From contig JAEUJQ010000045.1 of NCBI GenBank assembly GCA_016793095.1, forward strand, positions 124,001 through 188,000: a stretch of 64,000 nucleotides of DNA, written 5' to 3'. The stretch is from Myxococcaceae bacterium. GTDB taxonomy: Bacteria; Myxococcota; Myxococcia; Myxococcales; Myxococcaceae. The notes under the pieces were generated by a model, which was not told where the DNA came from, made no database searches, and saw nothing but the letters and a program-made list of their open reading frames with translations. Of the stretch, positions 29,541 to 60,061 are shown piece after piece (positions within the stretch are counted from its first letter, which is position 1; the number at the start of each line of letters is the position of its first letter). The position numbers and the translations under genes are program-made.

Positions 29541-31646
29541 TCAACCTTTCGCCTTCGCCTGGTGTGCCTCGACGAAGGTCAAGTAGCTCTTCGACACGCG
29601 CAGACCGTCGAGTCCCAGCTCGCGCGCCACGCTCATCAGCATGCCGCGCAGGTACACCATCGCCGGGAGCTGGTCGTAGCGATCCCCCTCGAGGTTCTCG
29701 AGGTGCCGGACACCGATTCGGGTGCGCTCCGAGAGCTGGAGCAGCGACACCCCTCGCGCCATCCGCACCTGGCGCAGGAGATCGCCGTTGAACTCGACGC
29801 CCGCGGGAACCTCATAGGGTCGCGGCCGCTCGGGAGGGCGGTACTCCCGCGGGGTGAAGGGACGCGCAGGGACGATGGCTGACTCGCCGTCGAGCGCCTC
29901 GGACGGCCCATCCAGGGGCAGAGAGGGCCGCTCCCCGACCCGCGCCTTCTCGTCGATGGGCGAGTCCTCCCCGACGGGCGCCTTCTCTCCGACGGGCGCC
30001 TTCTCTCCGACGGGCGCCTTCTCTCCGACGGACGCCTTCTCTCCGACCGACGCCTTCTCTCCGACGGACGCCTTCTCTCCGACGGACGCCTTCTCTTCGG
30101 CGGACGCCTTCTCTTCGGCGGACGCCTTCTCCTCTTCGGCGGACGCCTTCTCTTCGGCGGACGCCTTCTCTTCGGCGGACGCCTTCTCTTCGGCGGACGC
30201 CTTCTCTTCGACGGACGCTTTCTCTTCGACCGACGCCTTCTCTTCGACCGACGCCTTCGCCTCGACCGACGCCTTCCCTTCGACCGACGCCTTCTCTTCG
30301 ACCGAGGCCTTCTCTTCGGCGGACGCCGTCTCTTCGGCGGACGCCTTCTCTTCGACCGACGCCTTCTCTTCGACCGACGCCTTCGCCTCGACCGACGCCT
30401 TCTCTTCGACCGACGCCTTCTCTTCGACCGACCCCTTCTCTTCGGCGGACGCCTTCTCTTCGACGGACGCCTTCTCTTCGACGGACGCCTTCTCTTCGGC
30501 GGACGCCTTCTTCTCCTCGACGGACGCCTTCTTCTCCTCGACGGACGCCTTCTCTTTGACGGGCGCCTTCGCCTCGACCGACGCCTTCTCTTCGGCGGAC
30601 GCCTTCTTCTCCTCGACGGACGCCTTCTCTTTGACGGGCGCCTTCGCCTCGACCGATGCCTTCTCTTCGACAGAGGCCTTCTCTTCGACAGACGCCTTCT
30701 CTTCGACAGACGCCTTCTCTTCGACAGACGCCTTCTCTTCGACAGACGCCTTCTCTTCGACAGACGCCTTCTCTTCGACCGACCCCTTCTCTCCGACGGG
30801 CGCGTTCTCCTCGACGGACCCCTTCGCCTCGACCGACCCCTTCTCTCCGACGAGCGCGTTCTCCTCGACGGACCCCTTCGTCTCGACCGACGCCTTCTCT
30901 TCGACAGACGCCTTCTCTTCGACCGACCCCTTCTCTCCGACGGGCGCGTTCTCCTCGACGGACCCCTTCGTCTCGACCGACGCCTTCTCTTCGACAGACG
31001 CCTTCTCTCCGACCGACGCCTTCTCTCCGACCGACGCCTTCTCTCCGACCGACGCCTTCTCTTCGATCGCCTCGATCGGCTTCCGCTCTGCTGGCCGCGC
31101 CTGTCTGACCGTGCCTGACTGATCCGCGACGATCATCGTCGCGTTCGCGGCGCGCGCATCAGGCGGTGCGGAGCCCTCCTCGGTTCGCAGGGGCTTCGCC
31201 TCGGCCGCAACGGACTCCGCACGCGAAGGTCGCGGCGCGCTGGTCTGGGCGACCGGGGAACCAGTGGTGACGGTGTAGCTGTAGACCGCAGCCGCAGGGG
31301 ACGCTGAAGCGGTCGTCACGAACGCCCACGAGCCTGCCCACGACGTCGGAGCCGCCGCCGGCGCGCTGTTGGGGGCTGGCGCCTTCCTGGGCAGCTCACG
31401 TGGCGGCAGCCCGATGGAGACGTCATACGAGGCGCGCCGCTGCTCATCGAGCAGCGTGTCCACGGCCTCCTTGAGTCGTGCCCGAAGCGCACGGGCCCGC
31501 GTCTCGTCGATCAACCCGTAGAGCGCGACCTGATCCTCGGCATACAGCCGCAAGAGCCGCTCGTAGGCCGAGCGGATGTCACCGTCGGAAGCGCCGACCG
31601 ACACCTCCAGCAGCTCATAGAAGGTCTGGGCCTGGAACGACTTCAC
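29541..31646 (-). CDS. J-like / ~60-fold hexapeptide repeat / RodZ-type HTH protein
   Basis: 701 residues in three parts. Residues about 8-78 resemble a J-domain (FYELLEVSVGASDGDIRSAYERL ... LLDEQRRASYD), but the HPD motif is replaced by AED, so DnaK stimulation is unlikely. After a Pro/Ala/Ser-rich linker, residues about 194-575 are roughly sixty copies of a six-residue repeat (EEKASV, with GEKASV, EAKAPV, EEKASA and some 7-mers), highly charged and likely disordered or helical. The C-terminus (about 615-690) is a RodZ/HTH_25 domain: LLRQVRMARGVSLLQLSERT, then LPAMVYLRGMLMSVARELGLDG. It overlaps the MinD-type gene upstream by 4 bp. It is not predicted to span the membrane. Confidence 0.88.
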   Translation of the reverse strand: MKSFQAQTFYELLEVSVGASDGDIRSAYERLLRLYAEDQVALYGLIDETRARALRARLKEAVDTLLDEQRRASYDVSIGLPPRELPRKAPAPNSAPAAAPTSWAGSWAFVTTASASPAAAVYSYTVTTGSPVAQTSAPRPSRAESVAAEAKPLRTEEGSAPPDARAANATMIVADQSGTVRQARPAERKPIEAIEEKASVGEKASVGEKASVGEKASVEEKASVETKGSVEENAPVGEKGSVEEKASVEEKASVETKGSVEENALVGEKGSVEAKGSVEENAPVGEKGSVEEKASVEEKASVEEKASVEEKASVEEKASVEEKASVEEKASVEAKAPVKEKASVEEKKASAEEKASVEAKAPVKEKASVEEKKASVEEKKASAEEKASVEEKASVEEKASAEEKGSVEEKASVEEKASVEAKASVEEKASVEEKASAEETASAEEKASVEEKASVEGKASVEAKASVEEKASVEEKASVEEKASAEEKASAEEKASAEEKASAEEEKASAEEKASAEEKASVGEKASVGEKASVGEKASVGEKAPVGEKAPVGEKAPVGEDSPIDEKARVGERPSLPLDGPSEALDGESAIVPARPFTPREYRPPERPRPYEVPAGVEFNGDLLRQVRMARGVSLLQLSERTRIGVRHLENLEGDRYDQLPAMVYLRGMLMSVARELGLDGLRVSKSYLTFVEAHQAKAKG
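29935..31075. repeat. 18-bp tandem repeat tract inside the J-like/HTH gene
   Basis: About sixty imperfect 18-bp units, seen on the + strand as variants of GACGCCTTCTCTTCGGCG, plus a few 21-bp units with an extra codon. Blocks of identical units (for example seven EEKASV-type copies in a row and three GEKAPV copies near the left end) show recent expansion. The frame is preserved throughout, so it is under coding constraint. Copy number is likely variable between strains and prone to assembly error. Confidence 0.95.
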
Positions 31647-40141: not shown

Positions 40142-40148
40142 AGTTCAC
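40138..40148. terminator. Palindrome containing both convergent stop codons
   Basis: GTGAA-G-TTCAC, a perfect 11-bp inverted repeat. The kinase TGA (40139-40141) and the PDZ-protein TGA (read from 40147-40145) both lie within it. Weak as a terminator on its own; noted as part of a pattern. Confidence 0.25.
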
Positions 40149-42334
40149 CAGGAGGTGATCAGCAACGACTTGCGGCGCAGCACCAGCTCGACGGGCCGCC
40201 CCTCCCGCTCGAACCCGATGCGCACCGGCGTGCCGGCCGGTCCACGAATGCGGCCCACCACGTTCTGCAGATCGGCGCCGGCTGGTGCGCCCTCGATGCT
40301 GACGATCACGTCACCTGCCCGCACGCCTGCGCGCTCCGCGGGGCTCCCCTCGTTCACCACCTGCACGACCACGCGGTTGTTCTCGGGCCTCAGCGTCATG
40401 CCGACGCCCTCGAACCGCGGCGCCTCGTCCTGGAAGGGCTTGTTCGGGGAAGGCTGCAGCTCGACGGTCAGGTTGGCGGCGTCAGGCCTCGACGGCAGGT
40501 AGAAGCCCTGCGGCTCGTAGCCCTCGCGTCCGACCAGCAGCTGAACCTGCTTCGGCTGAGGGGGCAGCGTGAACTCGCCGCGCGCGTCGGTGGTGACGCT
40601 CACCTTGCCCATCGCTGACTCGGCGCGAACCCGCGCGTTCTGCAGTGGCAGTCTGGAGAGCCGATCGAGCACCCGACCCCGCACCGGGTCCGTCGCCGTC
40701 AGCGTCAGGGTGAGATCGACGGGCGCCCCTGCGACCGTCACCAGCTTGCCTCCAGTCCGGCCACGTCCGCTGACCTCGGCGAGCACCAGCCACCGGCCTC
40801 TCGGCAGATCGATCTGGAACACGCCGTCTGGCGCCATCAGCACGTACTTGCGGACCGCGCCGGTCTCATCGCTGCGGGCGAGCACGACCGCATCGGCCAC
40901 AGCCGCGCCGCTCTCATCCACGACACGCACGAGCACCGAGCCCCGCTCGAGGCGCAGGATCACCGTGTCGCCGGGCTTCGCAGTGGCGGTCGCGGCGCCG
41001 GCCGGCCCTTCAGCGTCGAGCAGCACCTGCGCCGCCGGAACTCCCTCGAAGCGGAACGTGCCGTCGGCGGCGGTGATCGCCTCGGAGGACGGGCCCGACC
41101 AGTCCCCGCTCCGCCACCGCACCCTCACGCCCTCGGAGGCCGGCTCGACGCGCCCGGCCAGCACCTGGCCCGAGGTGAGCTCGATGGTCCAGCGCTGGCC
41201 GTCGTCCCTGTGATCGAAGGGGCCCGCGATGGTGCTGAACGCGCCCAGCCGAACCTGGACGAGGTAGCGCCCGACGGGCACCGCGCTGAAGGCGAAGCGC
41301 CCGTCGAGGAACGCGCCGACGGTGCTGACCGGATCCTCGGTGAACGCGTTCACCAGCGTGAGGCTCGCGCCGCCGAGGGGGGCGCCGTCACGGCGAACGA
41401 CCCCCGAGATCCCGCCGAGATCGCCCAGCTCCACCACCACCCCTCTCTGAAGATCACCGACGGCGAGGCGCACCTCGGGGCCGGGGAACGTCACGCCAGC
41501 GGGCGTCACCACGACGACGCGGCGCAGCCCCTCGCTGCACTCGAGGCGAAACTCGCCCTTCGCGTTGGTCAGGCTGATGGGGCTGCGCTCGCCGCGCCGG
41601 AGGCCCTCGGTCAGCTCGGCCCACACCGACACGCCTGGCCGCGGCGTGCCCTGCTCGAGCACCTGCCCCTCGATGACGGACACCGGCGAGAGCGACAGAT
41701 CGAGCCTGCCGCCAGCGCGCGCGAGCTCGAGCGAGACCCACTCCGTTCGCGGGAGGAAGCCCTTCGCCATCACGTCGAGCCAGATCTGGCTCTTGGGCGC
41801 CGGCAGCTGGAAGGCGCCCTGATCGTTCGTCTGCGTCGTGCCGCCTGACCAGGACACGATCGCGCGGGGGATCGGCGCCCGGGTGACCGTGTCGCGCACC
41901 ACGCCATCGACCGTGACGGTCGGCTTCAGCTCGAGCACGATCCCGTCGATGGTCTTCCCGGGCTCGACGATGAAGGGCCCGAGCACGTCCGAGGCCATCG
42001 CGCCCGTCGAGGCCGCGACGAAGACCGGCTCGGGTGGGAGCCCGTCGATGCGAAAGGCGCCATCGTCGAGGCTGTCGACCGCGAGCGGTGTGCTGGCCTT
42101 CACGAGGACCCGGGCCCGCGCGACGCCTTTCCCGTCGAGGCGCACCAGCCCGCTGAGGGCCCCGGGCCGCTGAGCCGGTTCGTCGGCACGCCGGGTCGTG
42201 CTCCGTTCTCCCGGCTCGTCCTCCTGCGCGCGCTGAGGATCCGGGGCGGTGGAGGCGGGGCTCGAGAGGACGAGCGCAGCGATCCCACAGAGCAGCCCTG
42301 CGGTGACGATCAAGAGAAGGAGCCGCCGCGACAC
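40145..42334 (-). CDS. Exported beta-sandwich repeat protein with C-terminal PDZ domain
   Basis: 729 residues. An N-terminal hydrophobic segment (LLLLIVTAGLLCGIAALVLSS) acts as a signal or anchor. A series of carboxypeptidase-regulatory-like domains follows, with repeated LSGLVRLDGKGVARARVLVK, VDGVVRDTVTRAPIPRAIVSW, ISGVVRRDGAPLGGASLTLV and VRGRVLDRLSRLPLQNARVRA strands. The last 80 residues are a PDZ domain (VVVQVVNEGSPAERAGVRAGDVIVSIEGAPA). It is probably a periplasmic or surface scaffold that binds protein tails. It starts 9 bp after the stop of the giant coiled-coil gene, so the two are probably co-transcribed. Confidence 0.87.
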   Translation of the reverse strand: MSRRLLLLIVTAGLLCGIAALVLSSPASTAPDPQRAQEDEPGERSTTRRADEPAQRPGALSGLVRLDGKGVARARVLVKASTPLAVDSLDDGAFRIDGLPPEPVFVAASTGAMASDVLGPFIVEPGKTIDGIVLELKPTVTVDGVVRDTVTRAPIPRAIVSWSGGTTQTNDQGAFQLPAPKSQIWLDVMAKGFLPRTEWVSLELARAGGRLDLSLSPVSVIEGQVLEQGTPRPGVSVWAELTEGLRRGERSPISLTNAKGEFRLECSEGLRRVVVVTPAGVTFPGPEVRLAVGDLQRGVVVELGDLGGISGVVRRDGAPLGGASLTLVNAFTEDPVSTVGAFLDGRFAFSAVPVGRYLVQVRLGAFSTIAGPFDHRDDGQRWTIELTSGQVLAGRVEPASEGVRVRWRSGDWSGPSSEAITAADGTFRFEGVPAAQVLLDAEGPAGAATATAKPGDTVILRLERGSVLVRVVDESGAAVADAVVLARSDETGAVRKYVLMAPDGVFQIDLPRGRWLVLAEVSGRGRTGGKLVTVAGAPVDLTLTLTATDPVRGRVLDRLSRLPLQNARVRAESAMGKVSVTTDARGEFTLPPQPKQVQLLVGREGYEPQGFYLPSRPDAANLTVELQPSPNKPFQDEAPRFEGVGMTLRPENNRVVVQVVNEGSPAERAGVRAGDVIVSIEGAPAGADLQNVVGRIRGPAGTPVRIGFEREGRPVELVLRRKSLLITSW

Positions 42335-42343
42335 AGGGCCCTT

Positions 42344-45300
42344 CTACTTCTTTCCGCCTCCGGTTTTCCCGTTCCCGCCCACCTCTTCGTCGAGGAGGAC
42401 GATCTCCTCGGCTTCACCGTTGTCATCAGCCACGTCGAGCTCGAAGACCTCGGGGTCGACGGGGGACGTTGGTGGCGGCGGCGAGCTGGGTGGGGGCTTG
42501 GGCGGCGCGGTCTGTTTCAGGAGGGCCGCGAGGTCGGGCACCGGGTTGACTGCGGTGATCGGCTCGACGTCCAGCTCGAAGCCTTCGGTGTCCTTGACGG
42601 GCGCTCCGAAGCGCGGCGGGGGCGGCGGGGGCGGCGCTCTCCTCGCCTCCTCGAGGTCGCGGCGCGCCTGCTCGAGCAGCTTGCGCGTGAGCTCGAGGTC
42701 GGTCTCGAGGCGGAGCACCCGTTCCTTCGCCTGGTCCTGCTCCTTCACCCGGCGCTCGAGGCCGTCCACGAGCTCCGCGAGGCGCTGTCGCTCGGACTCG
42801 ATCAGCTCGTTCTCTGCCGTCAGCTCGGCGACCTGTTCGCGGAGATCGGGGCTGCCGCCCTGCTTCGCCTGTTCGAGCGCCTCGGTGAGGCTGGTGAGCT
42901 CGTGCTGGAGATCGCCGTACTTGACGCGCAGGGCGAGGAGCAGCTCCTCGGCTTGCCGACGAGCCCCGACGGCCGCGTCCACGTCCGACTTCGCGCTCAC
43001 GCGAGCGAGCTCGAGCTCGGCCTCGAGCTCAGGGAGGCGGCGCCGCAGGGCCTCGATCTCCGAGTCGGACCGGGGGGCCGCGCGCTCGGCCTCGGCGAGC
43101 CGCTTCTCGAGCACGTTCGCCTTGAGCCGCAGCTCGGTGATGGTGGTGTCGAGGGCAGGCCGCTCGTCCTGATACTGCGACAACGACTCGGCGAGCTGCG
43201 CAGCGCGGGTCTCGGCCTCGAGCACCTGCTGCTGGAGCGCTCCCGCGCGCGCGTCGAGCTCCATCGAGGAAGTCTCGAGCGTCGAGGCCCTGGCGCGGGC
43301 TTCGACGAGCTCGGCCTCCATCGCTGCCGAAGACGACCCGAGCTGCGCGCGACCCTCCTCGGCGAGCGCGAGGCGCTGCTCGAGCTCGGCGCGGGTCGCC
43401 TCGAGCTGCGGCAGCCGCTCCCTGAGCGCCTCGAGCTCGGGTTGGGCGCCCTGGAGCGTCCGAACCAGCCCCTCGAGCTCAGGCACCCGCTGCCGCAGGC
43501 GCTCGACCTCGGCCTCGAGCTGGGTGCGCGCCTCGGCGATGGCGCGGCTCTCTCCACCGGCCTGGGCGAGCGAGGTGCGCAGCTGATCGAGCTCGACGCG
43601 GGCACGATCGAGCTCTCCCTGGAGCGCGTGTTTCCCGGCCTGATGACCGCGCGCCTCGGAGTGCGCCTTGTCCACCTCCGCCTGCACCTTCGCGAGGTCG
43701 GCGAGCACCGAGTCGAGCTTCGCCTGCAGGTCGCTGCGCTCCTTCGAGGCGGCCTCGCGCGCGCTCTCGACGTCCTTCTTCAGCTCGTCGCGTTGGCGCT
43801 CGAGCTCATTGGACTTGCCCTCAGCAGCGCCAGCGCGCTGCAGCAGCTCGTCTTCGCGGGCCGCGAGGGCCTTCGCGGCCTCCACCGATCGCTGTTCGAG
43901 GTTGGCACGGTAGGCGGCGGCCTGTTGCTCGAGCGCGCGCTCGTGCTCGGCGCGGGCCTCGGTCAACTTCGCCTCGAGCTCCGCCTGCCGGCTCTCGAGG
44001 GCCCGGGCGGCGGCCTGGGTGGTGGCCTCGAGCTCGCTCCGGTGCGTGTCCACGAGGGCGACGCGGGCCTGGTCCCACTCGGCGCTCCGCTTCTCGAGCG
44101 TGGCGCGGGCCTCCTCGAGGGCGGCGCGTTGCTCGGCGGCGAGCCCGTCGAGGGAGGAGCGCTCGGACGTGAGCTGGGCGAGGTCGCCAGCGCGGGCCTC
44201 GAGGGCGACGCTGAGCGCCTGCTTCTCTGCCTCGAGGGTCTCGCGGCGCTGCTGCTCCTCCAGGCGCGCAGCGGAGAGCTGGCTGAGCTCGGCAGTCCGC
44301 GCCTCCAGGGCGCTCGCGAGGCTCGCCTTCTCGGCTTCGAGGCCCTCGCGCAGCTTCTGCTCTTCTCCGCGGCCGTAGACCGACTCCTCGAGCTCGGCCT
44401 TGAGGTGTTCGAGCTCCTCGGCCGTCGCGGCGGCGCTGCGCTGCGCATCCGCCAGCTGTCTCTCGAGCCGCTCGCGCTCGAGCCCCGTCGCGGCGACGGC
44501 CTGCGAGTGCTCCGCGAGCAGGCGCTCGATGGCGGCCGTCTTGTCGTCCAGGGTCGCCTGCAACGACGCCGACGAGGCTTGAAGATCGGCGAGGCGGTGT
44601 TCACGCTCGCCGATCGCCGCCGACAGCTCGTCGACGCGCCGCTCGAGGGTGGCCACGGACTCGAGGCTGCGGGAGAGCTCGACCTCGCGGGCAGCGAGCG
44701 CCTGCGACAGCGCCTCGATGCGCGACTGCTGGGACGAACCCGTGGTCGCCAGCGACTCACGCTCTGCAGCCAGCGCCGCGAGCGCCTCATTGGCCCTGCC
44801 CAGCGCCGTTTGAGCCTCGTCGAAGCTGGCAGTGCGCCGGTCGAGCGCTTCACGCACCTGCACGAGCTCGGACGAGAGGCCATCGACCCGCAGCCGCGCC
44901 GCGTCGAGCTCCGCCGACTTCGCAGCGACCAGGGCCTCGCGCTCGGCGCCCTGGGCCTGCCCTTCGGTCCTGAGGCGCTCGATCACGTCGGCCTGGCGCC
45001 TGGCCTCGGCCTCGAGCCGCTCGACCAGCTCGCCGCGGGCCTGGGCCTCGGCGCGTTGGAGCGCGGTCTCCTCGGCCTGCTCCCGCAGCGCGCGGTTCAG
45101 CTCGGCCACGCGGCCCTCGAGCTCGACGGCGCGGTTCGCCGAGAGCTCCGCGGCCTGCTTGAGCGCCTGGGTCTTCTCATCGGCGGCGCGCCGCTCCTCG
45201 GCCACCTGCGCGCGCAGGGCCGACAGCTCGCGATCGATGGCGTTCTTCTGCGAGCGCGCCGCCGCGAGGGCCTCGTCGGCTGCGAGCGTGATGCGCTGCA

Positions 45301-47887
45301 GGTTCTGCACCTGCTCCGACATGCCGGACGCGCGCAGCGTCGTCTCGTCGAGGCGTTGCTGGAGCGAGGCCTTCTCGGCGCGGACCGTCCCGAGCGTCGA
45401 GGTGGTCTGCTCGAGCGTCTGGGCGGTGTTCGCCAGGGTCCCCTCGAGCAGCGTGATCCGCTGGCGCAGCCCGGCCCCAGCCTGACGCTCGCCCTCGAGC
45501 TCGAGCTGCCAGGCCTCGGCGTCCCGCGTTCGACTCTCCAGGGCGGCGCGAGCCTCACCCTGCGCCCCCTCGAGCTGAGCCACGCGGTCGTTCAGCGCAG
45601 CGGTCGCCTGCCGCGCGGCGTCGAGCTCTCGATCGCGCGCCTCGAGATCGCGGCCCCGGCTCTCGAAGGAGGCGCGGGTTTCGTCCAGGGTGCGCTGACC
45701 GTCACGCAGCAAGCCGCCGAGGCGGGCGATCTCGGCGTCGAGGCCGGTGAGCTGCTCGCGCAGGCCCGCGGCGGTCGCCTTCTCGGAGGCGAGCTGCGCG
45801 TCCCGCTCGGAGATGGCGGCCTGGAGCGCCCGCTGTTGGTGCTGGGCCCCCTGGAGGGCGTCGTCTCGTTCCCGGCGCGCCTGCGCGGCCTCGCCCTCGA
45901 GGCGGCTCACGGTCGCCGCCAGGAGGCCCTTCTCGTCTTCGAGCGCCGAGACGCGCGTCTGTTCGGTCAGGCGAGCCTTCCGCAGGTCCTCGACGGCGCC
46001 GCGCAGGTCGTCCTTTTCCTCGATCAGGCGGTCGCGGTCCTGCGTCAGCTCGTCGAGCTGGCGGCGCAGCCCGGACGAGAGCACGTCGCCCTGTTCGCGC
46101 GAGGTGCGCTCGGCGGTGATCGCCGTCTCGAGGTCGCGCTCGAGGCGCCGGCCCCGCGCGATCTCCGCGTCCTTTGCGGCGCTGAGCTGAGCGATCTGAT
46201 CGCTCAACTGCTGAACGTTCGCGTTCGTCTCACCGAGGCGCTGCTCGAGCTGCTGGGCGGTCTCACGCCAGGTGCGCTCGGAGCTGGCGAGGGTCTCGAT
46301 GTCACGCAGGGCCCTGGCGTGCGCCGAGCTGGCCGCCTGGAGTTCGGTCTCGAGGCCGACGAGCGCCGTCTGACGCTGGGCGAGCTCCTCTTCGAGCTGC
46401 CGGGCGGTGGCGCTCGCGCGCTGCAGCTCCTGCTCGAGCTCGCGACGACGCGACGACTCGACCTCGAACGAGCGCGAGAGGGACAGCTTCTCTGCTTCCC
46501 GCTTCGAGCCCTCTTCCCGCAGGGCCGCGAGCTGATGGCGAGCGTCGGCGAGCGAGCGCTCGAGCCCTTCGATCGCGAGCAGGGACTGGGTGCGGGCGTC
46601 AGCGAGGGCGAGCTCACGCTGTCGTGCCGCGGTCAGCTCGGTCTCTCGCGACGCCATCTCGTCGCGCACGCGGTCGGCCTGGGCCAGGGCGCGTTCGCGC
46701 TCGAGCCGCTCGGTGACGACGTCTTCCTGGGCCTTCTTGAGCTCCTCGTACGCGCGCGCGAGCCGGGTGCGGGCGTCTTCGAGCTGGGTGGCCACCTCTT
46801 CGCGACGCGCCCGCTCGAGGCGGATCTGCTCCTGCGCGGCGAGCGCCTGGATCGCGGCGTCCTTCTGCGCGCGCTGCAGCGCCTCCTGCTCCGCCTTCGC
46901 GGCGGTCGCCCGGCCCTCTGCGTCGATCGCGCGCTCACGAAGCACGGTGAGCTCGGCCTCGAGGCGGCGCACGCGCTGGGCGAGCTCTTCGCGATCGCGC
47001 AGCGACTCGGGGCGCTCACGCTGCGCCTCGAGCTGCGCGGTCAGGCGGGCGAGCCCGTCTTTCGTGGCCTCGAGCTGGTCCTTCGTCTCCTTCAGATCGG
47101 CCTGGCGCGTCTCGAGCTCGGCGGTCTTCTTCTGCAGCGCGTCCTTGAGGCGCTCGGCGCGGTCGCGCCAGTCACGGGCGCGGGTCGAGAAGTCCTCGAG
47201 CTTGCCGCCGGTGAAGGCCAGCGGCTCGGGCGGCAGCTGCACCCACGTCGGATCGAAGCTGCGCGCCGGCTCCTGCCCGGCGATCACGATGAAGTACGCC
47301 GCCTCGCTGCTGCCGGCGAGCGAGCCGTCCACCTGCAGGCCGTCGCCCCGCTCGAAGGCGAGCTGGTAGCCCAGCACCGGAGACTGCGTCGCCACTTCGA
47401 CGGACTTGAAGTGCACCGACAGCGCATCGAGCAGCTGCCCGTAGGTGGGAGGCGGCTCGGCCTCCTCGGGATCGACGACGTTCGCGAGGGCGAGCCCGGC
47501 CGGGTTCCGCAGCCCGCCCATGAGGTAGCCGCTCTTCGCCACCAGCCGCGCGAGATCCTTCAGCAGCTCGGGCGCGCGGACGTACGGCGCGAGGTCGGCC
47601 ACCATCACGAGATCGAAGCTGCCCGCCTCGAAGTCGTCGAAGACCGGCGGGCGGAAGCGCAGGTTCGGTCCGGCGAGCTTCGCTTGCGCTTCCTGAATCG
47701 CCTGCAGATCGGCGTCGGCGGCGACGACCACGCGCGCGCCCCGGGTCTCGAGAAAACGGGCCGACTGCCCCAGCGTCGAGGCGACAGCGCCGATCTCGAG
47801 CACACGCCGTCTTGCGTAGAGGCTCTCGGCGAAGATGTACCGGGGGAGCAGCTCGCTCTGGCCCAGCCGTTTGAACGAAGTCGACAC
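42344..47887 (-). CDS. Giant coiled-coil protein with methyltransferase-like N-terminal domain
   Basis: 1847 residues from the GTG at 47887. Residues about 1-225 resemble a class I SAM methyltransferase: RRVLEIGAVASTLGQSARFL (motif I, but GxGxG is degraded), VVVAADAD and FDLVMVADLAPYV. From about 235 to 1740 it is an almost unbroken coiled coil rich in Glu, Ala, Arg and Leu (for example LEAQRERPESLRDREELAQR). The last 105 residues are Pro-rich and carry two copies of FELDV (GFELDVEPI and VFELDVADD) and an acidic EEIVLLDEEV. No membrane segment. The start is fixed by a TAGACT box 5 bp upstream and by where homology-like sequence begins. It may act as a cytoskeletal or polar scaffold. Confidence 0.85.
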   Translation of the reverse strand: MSTSFKRLGQSELLPRYIFAESLYARRRVLEIGAVASTLGQSARFLETRGARVVVAADADLQAIQEAQAKLAGPNLRFRPPVFDDFEAGSFDLVMVADLAPYVRAPELLKDLARLVAKSGYLMGGLRNPAGLALANVVDPEEAEPPPTYGQLLDALSVHFKSVEVATQSPVLGYQLAFERGDGLQVDGSLAGSSEAAYFIVIAGQEPARSFDPTWVQLPPEPLAFTGGKLEDFSTRARDWRDRAERLKDALQKKTAELETRQADLKETKDQLEATKDGLARLTAQLEAQRERPESLRDREELAQRVRRLEAELTVLRERAIDAEGRATAAKAEQEALQRAQKDAAIQALAAQEQIRLERARREEVATQLEDARTRLARAYEELKKAQEDVVTERLERERALAQADRVRDEMASRETELTAARQRELALADARTQSLLAIEGLERSLADARHQLAALREEGSKREAEKLSLSRSFEVESSRRRELEQELQRASATARQLEEELAQRQTALVGLETELQAASSAHARALRDIETLASSERTWRETAQQLEQRLGETNANVQQLSDQIAQLSAAKDAEIARGRRLERDLETAITAERTSREQGDVLSSGLRRQLDELTQDRDRLIEEKDDLRGAVEDLRKARLTEQTRVSALEDEKGLLAATVSRLEGEAAQARRERDDALQGAQHQQRALQAAISERDAQLASEKATAAGLREQLTGLDAEIARLGGLLRDGQRTLDETRASFESRGRDLEARDRELDAARQATAALNDRVAQLEGAQGEARAALESRTRDAEAWQLELEGERQAGAGLRQRITLLEGTLANTAQTLEQTTSTLGTVRAEKASLQQRLDETTLRASGMSEQVQNLQRITLAADEALAAARSQKNAIDRELSALRAQVAEERRAADEKTQALKQAAELSANRAVELEGRVAELNRALREQAEETALQRAEAQARGELVERLEAEARRQADVIERLRTEGQAQGAEREALVAAKSAELDAARLRVDGLSSELVQVREALDRRTASFDEAQTALGRANEALAALAAERESLATTGSSQQSRIEALSQALAAREVELSRSLESVATLERRVDELSAAIGEREHRLADLQASSASLQATLDDKTAAIERLLAEHSQAVAATGLERERLERQLADAQRSAAATAEELEHLKAELEESVYGRGEEQKLREGLEAEKASLASALEARTAELSQLSAARLEEQQRRETLEAEKQALSVALEARAGDLAQLTSERSSLDGLAAEQRAALEEARATLEKRSAEWDQARVALVDTHRSELEATTQAAARALESRQAELEAKLTEARAEHERALEQQAAAYRANLEQRSVEAAKALAAREDELLQRAGAAEGKSNELERQRDELKKDVESAREAASKERSDLQAKLDSVLADLAKVQAEVDKAHSEARGHQAGKHALQGELDRARVELDQLRTSLAQAGGESRAIAEARTQLEAEVERLRQRVPELEGLVRTLQGAQPELEALRERLPQLEATRAELEQRLALAEEGRAQLGSSSAAMEAELVEARARASTLETSSMELDARAGALQQQVLEAETRAAQLAESLSQYQDERPALDTTITELRLKANVLEKRLAEAERAAPRSDSEIEALRRRLPELEAELELARVSAKSDVDAAVGARRQAEELLLALRVKYGDLQHELTSLTEALEQAKQGGSPDLREQVAELTAENELIESERQRLAELVDGLERRVKEQDQAKERVLRLETDLELTRKLLEQARRDLEEARRAPPPPPPPRFGAPVKDTEGFELDVEPITAVNPVPDLAALLKQTAPPKPPPSSPPPPTSPVDPEVFELDVADDNGEAEEIVLLDEEVGGNGKTGGGKK

Positions 47888-47892
47888 GCCAC

Positions 47893-47920
47893 GCCGGAGT
47901 CTACCTTCCCTGAGGAGGTC
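47893..47920 (-). promoter_or_regulatory. Promoter-like element 5 bp upstream of the giant coiled-coil gene
   Basis: On the minus strand TTGGGG (47920-47915), a 16-bp spacer, then TAGACT (47898-47893), followed after 5 bp by the GTG at 47887. Transcription would start at or next to the start codon. There is no ribosome site. Confidence 0.5.
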
Positions 47921-47986
47921 CCCAAGGAAACCACCCGCCGTTCGGCAGAGACGGAACACCAGGGCAATGGAGGCTGTTTCAACCCG

Positions 47987-47992
47987 TATTAG
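47987..47992 (+). promoter_or_regulatory. Possible -10 box upstream of the inner-membrane protein gene
   Basis: TATTAG ends 13 bp before the ATG at 48006. It lies in the 118-bp region divergent from the giant coiled-coil gene. No clear -35. Confidence 0.3.
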
Positions 47993-48005
47993 CCTGTCGC
48001 GCGCC

Positions 48006-48797
48006 ATGGACACCGCCCCCGACCTCAAAGGCCCGTCGTTCCTCTCCAGGCTGGGGCGCGCGTTCCGCAACCTGGTCATCTTCGCGGTGGTGGTCGCGGC
48101 GGCGACGGGCGGGCTGTACGCCGCCTCGCTGCTCAACGCGCGCACCTGGAGCCTCGAGGTCCAGGGCGGCCAGTTGATCGTCACGAGGGGCAAGATGCTG
48201 CCGACGGGCACCGAGCCCTTCCAGCCGGCCGATCCGCTGCTCGCTGAGGCCTACGCTCCCCTCGAGCTGAACGGCAACACGGCCCTCGCCGTGGTGGGCA
48301 CCAGGTACGAGGATCGAGATGAGCTCGACCGGGCGCTGTTCTCGGTGATCGAGCTGCTGGCGAAGCCGCGCGTGGCGTCAGACACCAAGCGCGATCTCGA
48401 CGTGGGCGTGGGGCTGGTGAAGCGCGCCGAGGCCCTGCGGGGGCTGTCGGAGCAGCAGCGCGCCAGCCTGAAGACGCTCAAGGCCGAGGTGGCCTACTTC
48501 CTCGCGAAGCAGCGCATCGACGACGCGCGCAAGCAGCTCGACGAGGCGCTGCAGCAGCTCAAGCTGGCCGCTGACGCCGACGCACGCCACAAGAAGGACG
48601 CGACGCAGATGCTGCTCGCCGTCGAGCCGCAGGTGAAGGCGCTCTCGGACACGCTGAGGGCCGCCGTCCAGGGCCTGCCCCCGCCCGTGGTGGCTCCCGC
48701 GCCGGTCCCGCAGCCTGTTGCGTCGCCCCCGCCCGTCATCGCTGAGGCTGCGGACGCGGGCGTCGCCCCGGCCGAACCCGAGTCCGACGGCCACTGA
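48006..48797 (+). CDS. Single-pass inner-membrane protein, divergent from the giant coiled-coil gene
   Basis: 263 residues from the ATG at 48006. A short cytoplasmic N-terminus is followed by one membrane helix (about 23-43, LVIFAVVVAAATGGLYAASLL). A mixed domain (WSLEVQGGQLIVTRGKMLPTG) leads to a helical stretch, EQQRASLKTLKAEVAYFLAKQRIDDARKQLDEALQQLK, and the C-terminal tail is Pro/Ala-rich. It is likely anchored in the inner membrane with a periplasmic helical domain. No family is recognised. Shared divergent control with the coiled-coil protein suggests, but does not show, a functional link. Confidence 0.75.
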   Translation: MDTAPDLKGPSFLSRLGRAFRNLVIFAVVVAAATGGLYAASLLNARTWSLEVQGGQLIVTRGKMLPTGTEPFQPADPLLAEAYAPLELNGNTALAVVGTRYEDRDELDRALFSVIELLAKPRVASDTKRDLDVGVGLVKRAEALRGLSEQQRASLKTLKAEVAYFLAKQRIDDARKQLDEALQQLKLAADADARHKKDATQMLLAVEPQVKALSDTLRAAVQGLPPPVVAPAPVPQPVASPPPVIAEAADAGVAPAEPESDGH

Positions 48798-57748: not shown

Positions 57749-60061
57749 GTGCCCACTTTGCCTCCAGCACCCGTCAACGTCCTGATCGTCGATGACGACC
57801 GCTCGACCCAGCGAGTCCTCGCCGACGCCCTCACGAAACGCGGCTTCGTCGTCACCGTCGAGCGGGACGGCGAGTGGGCCGTGAAGACCTTCGAGAAGAA
57901 GCCCTTCGACGTGGTGCTGCTCGACATCCTGTTGCCGGCGCTCAACGGCTACGAGGTGGCGAAGAAGATGCGGTCGGTGCCCCGCGGCAAGCGCACGCCC
58001 ATCATCATGATCTCGGGGGTGTACAAGAACGCCATTCACCAGCGCGAGGCGGTGAGCAAGCACGGCGCCTTCGCCTTCCTCGAGAAGCCGATCGACCTCG
58101 AGAAGCTGACCGGCGTCTTGCGGGACGCGCTGGGCGATCGGTACCCGGAGCCTGCGCCGCCGAAGCCGCCTCCGCCGCCGCTCGAAGAGGACGAGAAGAC
58201 GGGCGAGTTCTACGCCGACGATCTGCAGCGCGAGGAGGCCCTGCACGTCGAGGCGCAGGCGAAGCACGTGCAGCAGCCGAGCAAGCCGTCAGGCCCGGTG
58301 ATCAAGGGCGACTTCGCGCAGGCGCCGTTCGCGAAGGTGCTGGCCGAGCTCTACCGCTGGCGGGCGACGGGCGCGCTGCTCGCGGGCCGCGCCAGGGTGA
58401 AGAAGATCATCTACCTGCGGGACGGCGTGCCCGAGCTGGTGAAGTCGAACCTGCTGGTCGAGGCCCTCGGGCGGATCCTCGTGCGCGAGAAGATGATCAC
58501 CGAGGCCGAGTGCGAAGAGTCGCTCAAGCGCATGAAGGCGACGAGGCGCATGCAGGGCACGGTGCTGATCGAGATGGGGTGCATCAGCCCGCACAACCTC
58601 TCGTATGCGCTGACGCAGCAGATGCAGGAGAAGCTGTACGACGCCTTCCGATGGGACGACGGCCTGTACCAGTTCAAGCCAGGCGTGCAGCAGCCGCCCG
58701 AGCCGGTCACGCTGGGGATGACGACGGCGCAGCTGATCGTCGAGGGCGTGCGGCGGACGTACGACGACAAGCGGGTCGCGCGGGCGCTGGGTGAGGTGTC
58801 GCAGCTCTACGTGCACCCGAGCGACGATCCGCTCTACGCGCTGCAGGACGCCGGGCTGTCGGACGAGGAGAAGGAGATCGCCCTCGTGGCTGACGGCCAC
58901 AAGACGGTCGCGACGCTGCGGGCGCTCAACGTGCTGACGCCGCTGGAGACGGACAAGCTGATCTTCGCCCTGACGTGCGCGCAGATGCTGTCGCTCAAGC
59001 CGACGCCGGCCGCAGGCAAGCCGAAGGTGTCGATCGCGAAGATCGCGGCGGATCTCCACCCGCAGGAGCCGCCGCCGATGCCGAAGCCGAGCCCCGCCGC
59101 GGCGCCGCCCCCGCTGCCGCCCCCGCTCCCGCCGCCGCTGCCCCAGCGCGCGACGCCCGCCGCGCCCCCGAAGGAGCTGCTCGACCTGCCGTGGGACAGC
59201 GCCGAGCTCGCGAGGCCAGCGGTGCCGCAGGTCGCGGTGCCCCCGCCGCCTCCGCCGGACACCACGCCGCCAGGGAGAGGGAAGAAGGGCAGGAAGGACG
59301 ACGCGCCGCCGCCGCCGAAGTCGAGCTCGCTGTTGCCCGAGCTGTCCGAGGTGGTGAGCATGCCGCGCCTGTCGAACGAGGAGCGCGATCACCGCGAGCG
59401 CCTCGCCGCGCGGGTGGCTGCGATGCGCAAGCAGGACTACTTCGAGGTGCTGGGCATCAAGCGCAATGCCTCGCGGGAGGACATCAAGCGCTCGTACTTC
59501 GCCCTCGCGAAGGAGTTCCACCCCGACAAGCACGCGATGTCGAAGTCTGCCGAGATCCGCGAGCTGGCGCAGCAGATCTACGATCTGATCTCGAGCGCCC
59601 ACGACACCCTCACCGATCCGGCCGAGCGGGAGCGGTACGTGAAGGATCTCGAGCAGGGCGTGAAGCACGACATGGGCGAGGACGTGGGCAAGATCCTCGC
59701 GGCCGAGGGCAAGTTCCAGCGGGGCGAGGAGTTCATGCGCCAGCGACAGTTCGCCGAGGCGGTGGGGGCGTTCAAGGAGGCGGTGGCGCTCTACCCTGAG
59801 GAGGGCGAGTTCTTCGCGTGGCTCGGCTGGGCGCGCTTTCAGGCGGCGCCGGAGCAGGCTGAGGAGGCGCTCACCGAGATCGAGAAGGCGATCAACCTGA
59901 ACCCGAAGCTCGACAAGAGCTACCTGTTCCTCGGCTACATCCACAAGGCGACGGGCCGCCCGGACAAGGCCGAGAAGCAGTTCGAGAAGGCGATTCAGGC
60001 GAACCCGGACTGCACCGAGGCGCTCCGCGAGCTGCGCCTGCTCGGCAAGTCGAAGCGGTAG
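57749..60061 (+). CDS. Receiver-DUF4388-J-domain-TPR signalling protein
   Basis: 770 residues from GTG 57749 (TTG 57758 is the alternative). The receiver (about 10-130) has VLIVDDD, phospho-Asp 59 in VVLLDILLPALNG and the Lys in FLEKPID. A DUF4388 (PATAN-type) domain (about 190-310) starts IKGDFAQAPFAKVLAELYRWRATG. A long Pro-rich linker is followed by a J-domain (about 565-635) with an intact HPD in LAKEFHPDKHAMSK, and TPR repeats to the end (GEEFMRQRQFAEAVGAFKEAVALYP, AEKQFEKAIQANPD). It may couple phosphorelay input to DnaK-type chaperone action. A patatin gene starts 4 bp downstream. Confidence 0.92.
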   Translation: MPTLPPAPVNVLIVDDDRSTQRVLADALTKRGFVVTVERDGEWAVKTFEKKPFDVVLLDILLPALNGYEVAKKMRSVPRGKRTPIIMISGVYKNAIHQREAVSKHGAFAFLEKPIDLEKLTGVLRDALGDRYPEPAPPKPPPPPLEEDEKTGEFYADDLQREEALHVEAQAKHVQQPSKPSGPVIKGDFAQAPFAKVLAELYRWRATGALLAGRARVKKIIYLRDGVPELVKSNLLVEALGRILVREKMITEAECEESLKRMKATRRMQGTVLIEMGCISPHNLSYALTQQMQEKLYDAFRWDDGLYQFKPGVQQPPEPVTLGMTTAQLIVEGVRRTYDDKRVARALGEVSQLYVHPSDDPLYALQDAGLSDEEKEIALVADGHKTVATLRALNVLTPLETDKLIFALTCAQMLSLKPTPAAGKPKVSIAKIAADLHPQEPPPMPKPSPAAAPPPLPPPLPPPLPQRATPAAPPKELLDLPWDSAELARPAVPQVAVPPPPPPDTTPPGRGKKGRKDDAPPPPKSSSLLPELSEVVSMPRLSNEERDHRERLAARVAAMRKQDYFEVLGIKRNASREDIKRSYFALAKEFHPDKHAMSKSAEIRELAQQIYDLISSAHDTLTDPAERERYVKDLEQGVKHDMGEDVGKILAAEGKFQRGEEFMRQRQFAEAVGAFKEAVALYPEEGEFFAWLGWARFQAAPEQAEEALTEIEKAINLNPKLDKSYLFLGYIHKATGRPDKAEKQFEKAIQANPDCTEALRELRLLGKSKR

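Follow-up and report, generated by a model that had tools for sequence, protein, structure and literature searches.

A degenerate methyltransferase-fold head on a long, variable coiled coil: a candidate membrane-linked scaffold of the Myxococcota

Introduction

One gene in the window (the whole stretch of 64,000 nucleotides of Myxococcaceae DNA analyzed here) encodes a methyltransferase-like domain followed by a very long coiled coil, and raises the question of what such a head does on such a rod. Two Myxococcus xanthus proteins share part of this build. FrzS has a pseudo-receiver head and a large C-terminal coiled coil (PMC11580455) and AglZ has a receiver and a filament-forming coil (PMC2680258). 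The protein studied here resembles FrzS in joining a degenerate signaling-type N-terminal domain to a long coil, and resembles AglZ, whose role in gliding is known, in joining a small N-terminal domain to a long coil. However, it differs from both in its head, which has a methyltransferase fold in place of a receiver-type one. The preliminary description of this DNA considered a methyltransferase-headed scaffold to be uncharacterized; in agreement, we found no published characterization of the protein in the open-access literature searched. That a gene kept by 93 of 96 genomes in a family this well studied, and flanked by a conserved partner gene, yielded no paper in this search marks a gap in myxobacterial cell biology. 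The features referred to below are as follows.

47887→42344, minus strand: the head-coil gene, translated into 1847 residues plus stop
47177..47887, minus strand: methyltransferase-fold head, residues 1-237 (from Pfam, family profile and pN/pS)
42653..47176, minus strand: coiled-coil rod, residues 238-1745 (from heptad autocorrelation, Pro-free run, identity profile and pN/pS)
42344..42652, minus strand: Pro-rich acidic tail, residues 1746-1847 plus stop (from comparison with relatives)
47888..48005, no strand: intergenic region between the divergent genes, 118 bp
48006..48797, plus strand: TMdiv, our name for the divergent partner gene (from AlphaFold2, profile and adjacency)
40145..42334, minus strand: downstream co-directional PDZ gene (Pfam: six CarboxypepD_reg repeats and a C-terminal PDZ domain)

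Results

Reading frame and start of the head-coil gene

Translation of 42344-47887 yields the 1847-residue protein that had been described without a strand, and places it on the minus strand. The mechanical open reading frame is longer (1955 residues) and starts upstream at 48211, overrunning the divergent gene. All 12 aligned relatives begin at the position of the GTG at 47887, in some cases with an ATG. A plus-strand frame of 1696 codons overlaps the same DNA and was rejected as spurious, as substitutions relative to four relatives (L003, L005, L006 and L014) fit the minus frame. In these comparisons pN/pS was 0.07-0.22 for the head, 0.26-0.64 for the proximal coil, 0.61-0.96 for the middle coil, 0.30-0.72 for the distal coil and 0.35-0.81 for the tail. 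For the head, the lowest antisense frame gave 0.21-0.35, which was above the sense frame in every comparison. Thus, the head is under strong purifying selection and the middle of the coil hardly at all. The coordinates also confirm the spacing to the neighboring genes, 118 bp upstream and 9 bp downstream. Scanning the 118-bp intergenic region for sigma-70-type promoters gave no match, and no tandem repeats were found within the gene.

A methyltransferase-type head with a degenerate SAM loop

To assign the head we relied on profiles. Pfam Methyltransf_11 matches head residues 37-123 with 27.0 bits (cut-off 21.2). A phylum-wide profile of 34 head sequences matches solved SAM methyltransferases with a best E of 2.2e-11, and 31 of the 34 members individually match Methyltransf_25. 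Searched by itself against the PDB, the window's head found no convincing relative; its matches to WD-40 proteins (best E 0.0002) contained no stretch that passed alone, and this identity was rejected because the family profile finds mostly proteins named methyltransferases. AlphaFold2 modeled the head with a pLDDT of just 35.3, because the alignment was limited to 13 closely similar sequences (identity to the window's head 77-96%, the range seen across its 12 relatives). The class I methyltransferase fold of the head is thus assigned from the profiles. Compared with class I SAM methyltransferases of the Methyltransf_11/25 type, it is alike by profile but has lost the SAM glycine loop, and it has in addition the coil and an extra conserved C-terminal segment, QSPxLG ... 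LVQLP.

The loop itself, motif I, reads EIGAVASTLG (residues 31-40) and departs from the E/DxGxGxG of active class I SAM-dependent methyltransferases. GAVAST is unchanged in 13 of 13 close heads. Among 29 Myxococcaceae heads, 21 keep the first glycine (position 33) and 8 have D there, whereas the second glycine (position 35) is replaced by V in 28 heads and by I in one; two of the three motif I glycines are substituted in every head. The Myxococcaceae loop also carries a three-residue insertion relative to family f11, which belongs to another class and in which all nine rows have a GCxDG/GCGDG-type loop with small changes. All 29 Myxococcaceae heads keep E31, D58 and D92, of which E31 and D58 are at the SAM site. 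The degraded loop, EIGAVAST, and the methyltransferase-type head that had been read from the window are therefore both borne out by Pfam, the family profile and motif I.

In a tree of the heads, the window's clade splits from the rest with support 97/94 and shows a degenerate loop in 29 of 29 rows. Because rows outside this clade (f14, f17, f24 and f31) are degenerate as well, intact SAM loops are a minority in the head family. The tree is midpoint-rooted; that the glycine loop was lost in one group, and not gained in the other, is concluded from the general methyltransferase consensus instead of the tree, and the alignment used for the loop comparison excludes L086 and L095. Together, the strong purifying selection, the replacement of GxGxG by GAVAST and the intact loops of f11 argue that the head is probably a pseudoenzyme docking domain whose activity has been lost. 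Through the f11 relatives, enzyme and pseudoenzyme can be compared as they occur naturally within a single protein family.

A coiled-coil rod of variable length

Similar to AglZ and FrzS, the protein has a long, continuous coiled coil, and the roughly 1500 residues originally ascribed to it hold up. Proline is absent over 1175 residues (294-1468), and hydrophobic autocorrelation peaks at lags 7, 14, 21 and 28 (0.22, 0.25, 0.20 and 0.26). With a home-made heptad score and a null of five shuffles, 43% of 28-residue windows were above the 95th percentile of the shuffled sequence. Weak matches of the coil to MscS_porin, KASH_CCD, SMC, Rad50 and S-layer proteins were rejected as coiled-coil similarity. 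A coiled coil rises 0.1485 nm per residue, so the rod would probably be about 220 nm long if continuous, presumably as a dimer.

Identity to five relatives in 60-residue blocks was 0.86-0.94 in the head, 0.53-0.81 over residues 241-660, 0.18-0.52 over 661-1260 and 0.46-0.63 over 1261-1740. The coil is thus conserved close to both ends, with a hypervariable middle (721-1260). Length also varies, from 329 to 2326 residues among 55 full-length relatives and from 714 to 2326 within one family. This variation in length and in middle sequence indicates that the coil acts as a spacer with two ends that matter, and that it is free to vary in length where a ruler would be fixed.

The tail and its FELDV motifs

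The tail contains the poly-Pro stretch, the two FELDV copies and the acidic end that had been described. The proposal that FELDV binds a partner was not supported by comparison with relatives. The doubled motif occurs in 1 of 55 full-length proteins, the window's own. Four others (L003, L005, L006 and L014) have a single FEL[DE]V within the block EVFEL[DE]V...AEEI[VL]LL, and a FELDV-type motif is absent from the remaining 50. Near relatives share the distal block, EVFELDV...AEEIVLLDEE, but not the proximal FELDV copy. A search of the window's own genome with the tail returned the protein itself and two unconvincing matches, at E 0.2 and 1.0. As judged from these comparisons, tails differ by lineage and the doubled FELDV is a local curiosity.

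Distribution across the Myxococcota

Of 195 Myxococcota genomes, 140 have the protein as judged by the head profile, including 93 of the 96 genomes of the Myxococcaceae (f1; the exceptions are G072, G112 and G142), so that the combination of head and coil extends well outside this strain, as anticipated. Three of the 140, from f2, probably carry other methyltransferases: the f2 proteins L073 and L074 have a canonical motif I, coil in only 0.11 of windows and a branch length of 2.88, and were excluded, with the f2 genomes still counted in the total. Otherwise 140 of 195 is a lower bound, as illustrated by locus L110. There, in a genome with no head-profile match, the membrane gene TMdiv adjoins a gene for a protein of 553 residues that matches Methyltransf_31 faintly (19.5 bits, below the cut-off) and has, by eye, a coil. 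The protein is single-copy in all but four genomes. Three small genomes of 2.1-2.7 Mb (G144-G146) retain it, and the two proteins read from these have 726 and 714 residues.

Second, divergent copies of the head are found at L079:7640-9193, L081:6553-8472 and L084:8269-9480 (genomes G103, G111 and G157), each with no adjoining TMdiv. Separately, G112, a Myxococcaceae genome that is 98% complete, has neither the head-coil protein nor TMdiv, which may be a natural loss or the result of assembly gaps.

The adjoining membrane-protein gene TMdiv

TMdiv matched no Pfam family. Its AlphaFold2 model (pLDDT 77.9) predicts an N-terminal transmembrane helix (12-43), a beta hairpin and a helical domain (104-223), and the protein also has a Pro/Ala-rich tail. 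Foldseek returned nothing for this model at E <0.001 (best 0.76). The best VIA-align match was Fis1, with a Z of 8.3 and an rmsd of 3.9 over 68 residues; by the program's own guidance a Z of this size can reflect no more than a widespread arrangement of helices, and the likeness was set aside with no family claimed or excluded.

A TMdiv profile finds the gene in 157 of 195 genomes. Tallied by genome and uncorrected for relatedness, the two profiles gave both proteins in 127, the head protein only in 13, TMdiv only in 30 and neither in 25; three Myxococcaceae genomes lack both. The 13 and 30 genomes with one member demonstrate that the pair is not obligate.

To count adjacency, we excluded the paralogs L079, L081 and L084; L015-L044, which are short or overlap others, were excluded from the neighborhood counts, and L070 and L090-L093 were dropped since no head was found at the script's threshold. 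TMdiv adjoins the head-coil gene in 29 of 29 Myxococcaceae loci read (in L003 as a cut piece). The counts for other families were 6 of 8 in f3, 3 of 3 in f6 (one at 1.9 kb), 2 of 3 in f8, 2 of 2 in f9, 0 of 1 in f7, 0 of 1 in f10 (at a contig end) and 1 of 1 in the tally for f31, for which the loci named are L094 and L111. In f11 the gene is never adjacent (0 of 9) and is present elsewhere in the genome, and f2, f14, f17, f20 and f24 together gave 0 of 8. TMdiv is transcribed divergently from the head-coil gene in f1 and in the same direction as that gene in f3, f6, f8, f9 and f31. That adjacency survives this change of orientation argues for a functional link between the two genes, beyond a shared promoter alone.

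The ExbD/TolR domain is periplasmic in known proteins, and one TMdiv ortholog of the 26 members scanned (L009:5568-6587) has such a domain at its C-terminus (E 1.9e-13). Because of this fusion, and because positive residues precede the helix (as judged by eye), the C-terminal part of TMdiv is probably periplasmic. In that case a cytoplasmic partner would have access to no more of TMdiv than its short N-terminus and its helix.

The PDZ gene and the wider neighborhood

The PDZ gene product has, by eye, an N-terminal hydrophobic segment. Twelve loci, drawn from five families (f1, f6, f7, f8 and f9), have the PDZ gene 3' of the head-coil gene. Conserved adjacency therefore supports both neighbors that had been put forward as candidate partners, and the TMdiv gene is a stronger lead than FELDV.

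Many loci continue with dapF, a REC-GGDEF gene and a REC-DUF4388(PATAN) gene, and L080 has the full row: TMdiv, head-coil, PDZ, dapF, REC-GGDEF and REC-PATAN. In the genome from which the window comes, a different contig holds dapF together with the REC-GGDEF gene. Elsewhere, TMdiv lies downstream of phosphoribosyltransferase genes. Conserved neighbors include dapF, nrdAB and phosphoribosyltransferases, and no motility gene was seen among the conserved neighbors of the f1 loci read (partly by eye). The PATAN gene of the operon was not matched to MXAN_3211 or MXAN_4965, the PATAN proteins named in PMC11580455. Some gene calls in these wider neighborhoods (e.g. L110 and L095) come from a crude GC-based script.

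The f11 loci with an intact loop (L064-L068, L096-L098 and L100) have a different conserved neighborhood with LpxC, a PurF-like gene and an M20 peptidase, as well as, by eye, HU-like and TPR lipoprotein genes. At L095:6034-12180, in the distant and incomplete genome G170, a weak head-coil homologue is followed directly by a T2SSE-type (PilT-like) ATPase gene; divergent MotA/TolQ/ExbB and, by eye, ExbD-like genes lie upstream of it.

Discussion

We propose that the head-coil protein is a cytoplasmic scaffold or tether, linked to the membrane and variable in length, and assign this reading a probability of about one half. The methyltransferase-fold head, having no SAM glycine loop, would act as a conserved protein-docking head. 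The coil would form a long rod, probably dimeric, that serves as a spacer with two functional ends, and the tail would be a lineage-specific adaptor. The protein would act with TMdiv in the inner membrane, where adjacency of the genes is observed and contact between the products is presumed, and in several lineages it would act with the PDZ envelope protein as well. A cytoplasmic assembly would in this way be linked to the cell envelope. Since E31 and D58 are retained at the SAM site, some ligand may still bind the head. More tentatively, the protein may be a phylum-old scaffold of the Myxococcota and a counterpart of FrzS and AglZ, in which a pseudoenzyme head on a rod that can reach about 300 nm forms an axis from cytoplasm to envelope together with a single-pass membrane protein dedicated to it; nearly every Myxococcaceae genome retains it, including the small ones of 2.1-2.7 Mb. 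If the head is indeed a pseudo-methyltransferase, the design of a dead signaling domain on a long coil has been reached with different folds.

The closest alternative is a polarity or gliding scaffold like AglZ or FrzS, in which a dead head and coil are recruited to the pole or to focal adhesions and work on type IV pili or the gliding motor. The shared build described in PMC11580455 and PMC2680258 is consistent with this idea, as is the REC-DUF4388(PATAN) gene near many family loci, but a Pfam scan of the head-coil protein gave no Response_reg (receiver) match, finding the methyltransferase match instead. MglA occurs in all 96 f1 genomes; however, it is present in 184 of 195 genomes overall and, being nearly universal, cannot discriminate. 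The conserved neighbors are dapF, nrdAB and phosphoribosyltransferases, not motility genes, and the PilT-like ATPase gene 3' of a weak homologue, which would fit a motility role, is a single case in one incomplete, distant genome, with a head match of 38 bits. We regard a pole or gliding role as less likely than the main reading. Somewhat less probable again is that binding of SAM or SAH has been retained by the head, which the coil would then position either as an active enzyme of an unusual kind or as a ligand sensor. The Methyltransf_11 score above its cut-off, the three invariant acidic residues and the existence of coil-bearing f11 relatives with an intact loop all point that way, but every one of the 29 Myxococcaceae heads has lost two of the three motif I glycines, 8 of these heads lack the first glycine too, and the loop carries its three-residue insertion relative to f11.

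Two further comparisons lead to improbable readings. WbdD of Escherichia coli O9a likewise has a methyltransferase at its N-terminus and a coiled coil at its C-terminus and, according to PMC3482155, is a trimeric protein with active methyltransferase and kinase that terminates glycan chains, its coil-containing C-terminal domain spanning only residues 460-708. A similar protein that regulates the chain length of a surface glycan, using its coil as a molecular ruler, would agree in its two end domains, but WbdD has a kinase between them and no kinase domain was found here in Pfam or NCBIfam scans. The degenerate SAM loop, the range of coil lengths within one family (714-2326 residues) and the conserved neighbors, among which no glycosyltransferase or glycan polymerase was seen (partly by eye), likewise speak against it. 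Least probable is a chromosome protein of the SMC/Rad50 type. The SMC_prok_B profile does match with an E of 9e-33, but its 113 bits compare with a family cut-off of 567 and cover coil segments only, such coil-to-coil similarity is an effect of composition, and no ATPase head or domain was found with Pfam or NCBIfam. The preferred reading is the membrane-linked scaffold or tether.

Other genes in the window

Two further genes of the window were noted for their domain arrangements. In the product of 29541-31646, which has a DnaJ domain and ends in an HTH_25 domain, EKASVE-type repeats follow one another almost unchanged over a long stretch. The product of 57749-60061 combines receiver, DUF4388 (PATAN), DnaJ and TPR domains in a single protein, a signaling architecture.
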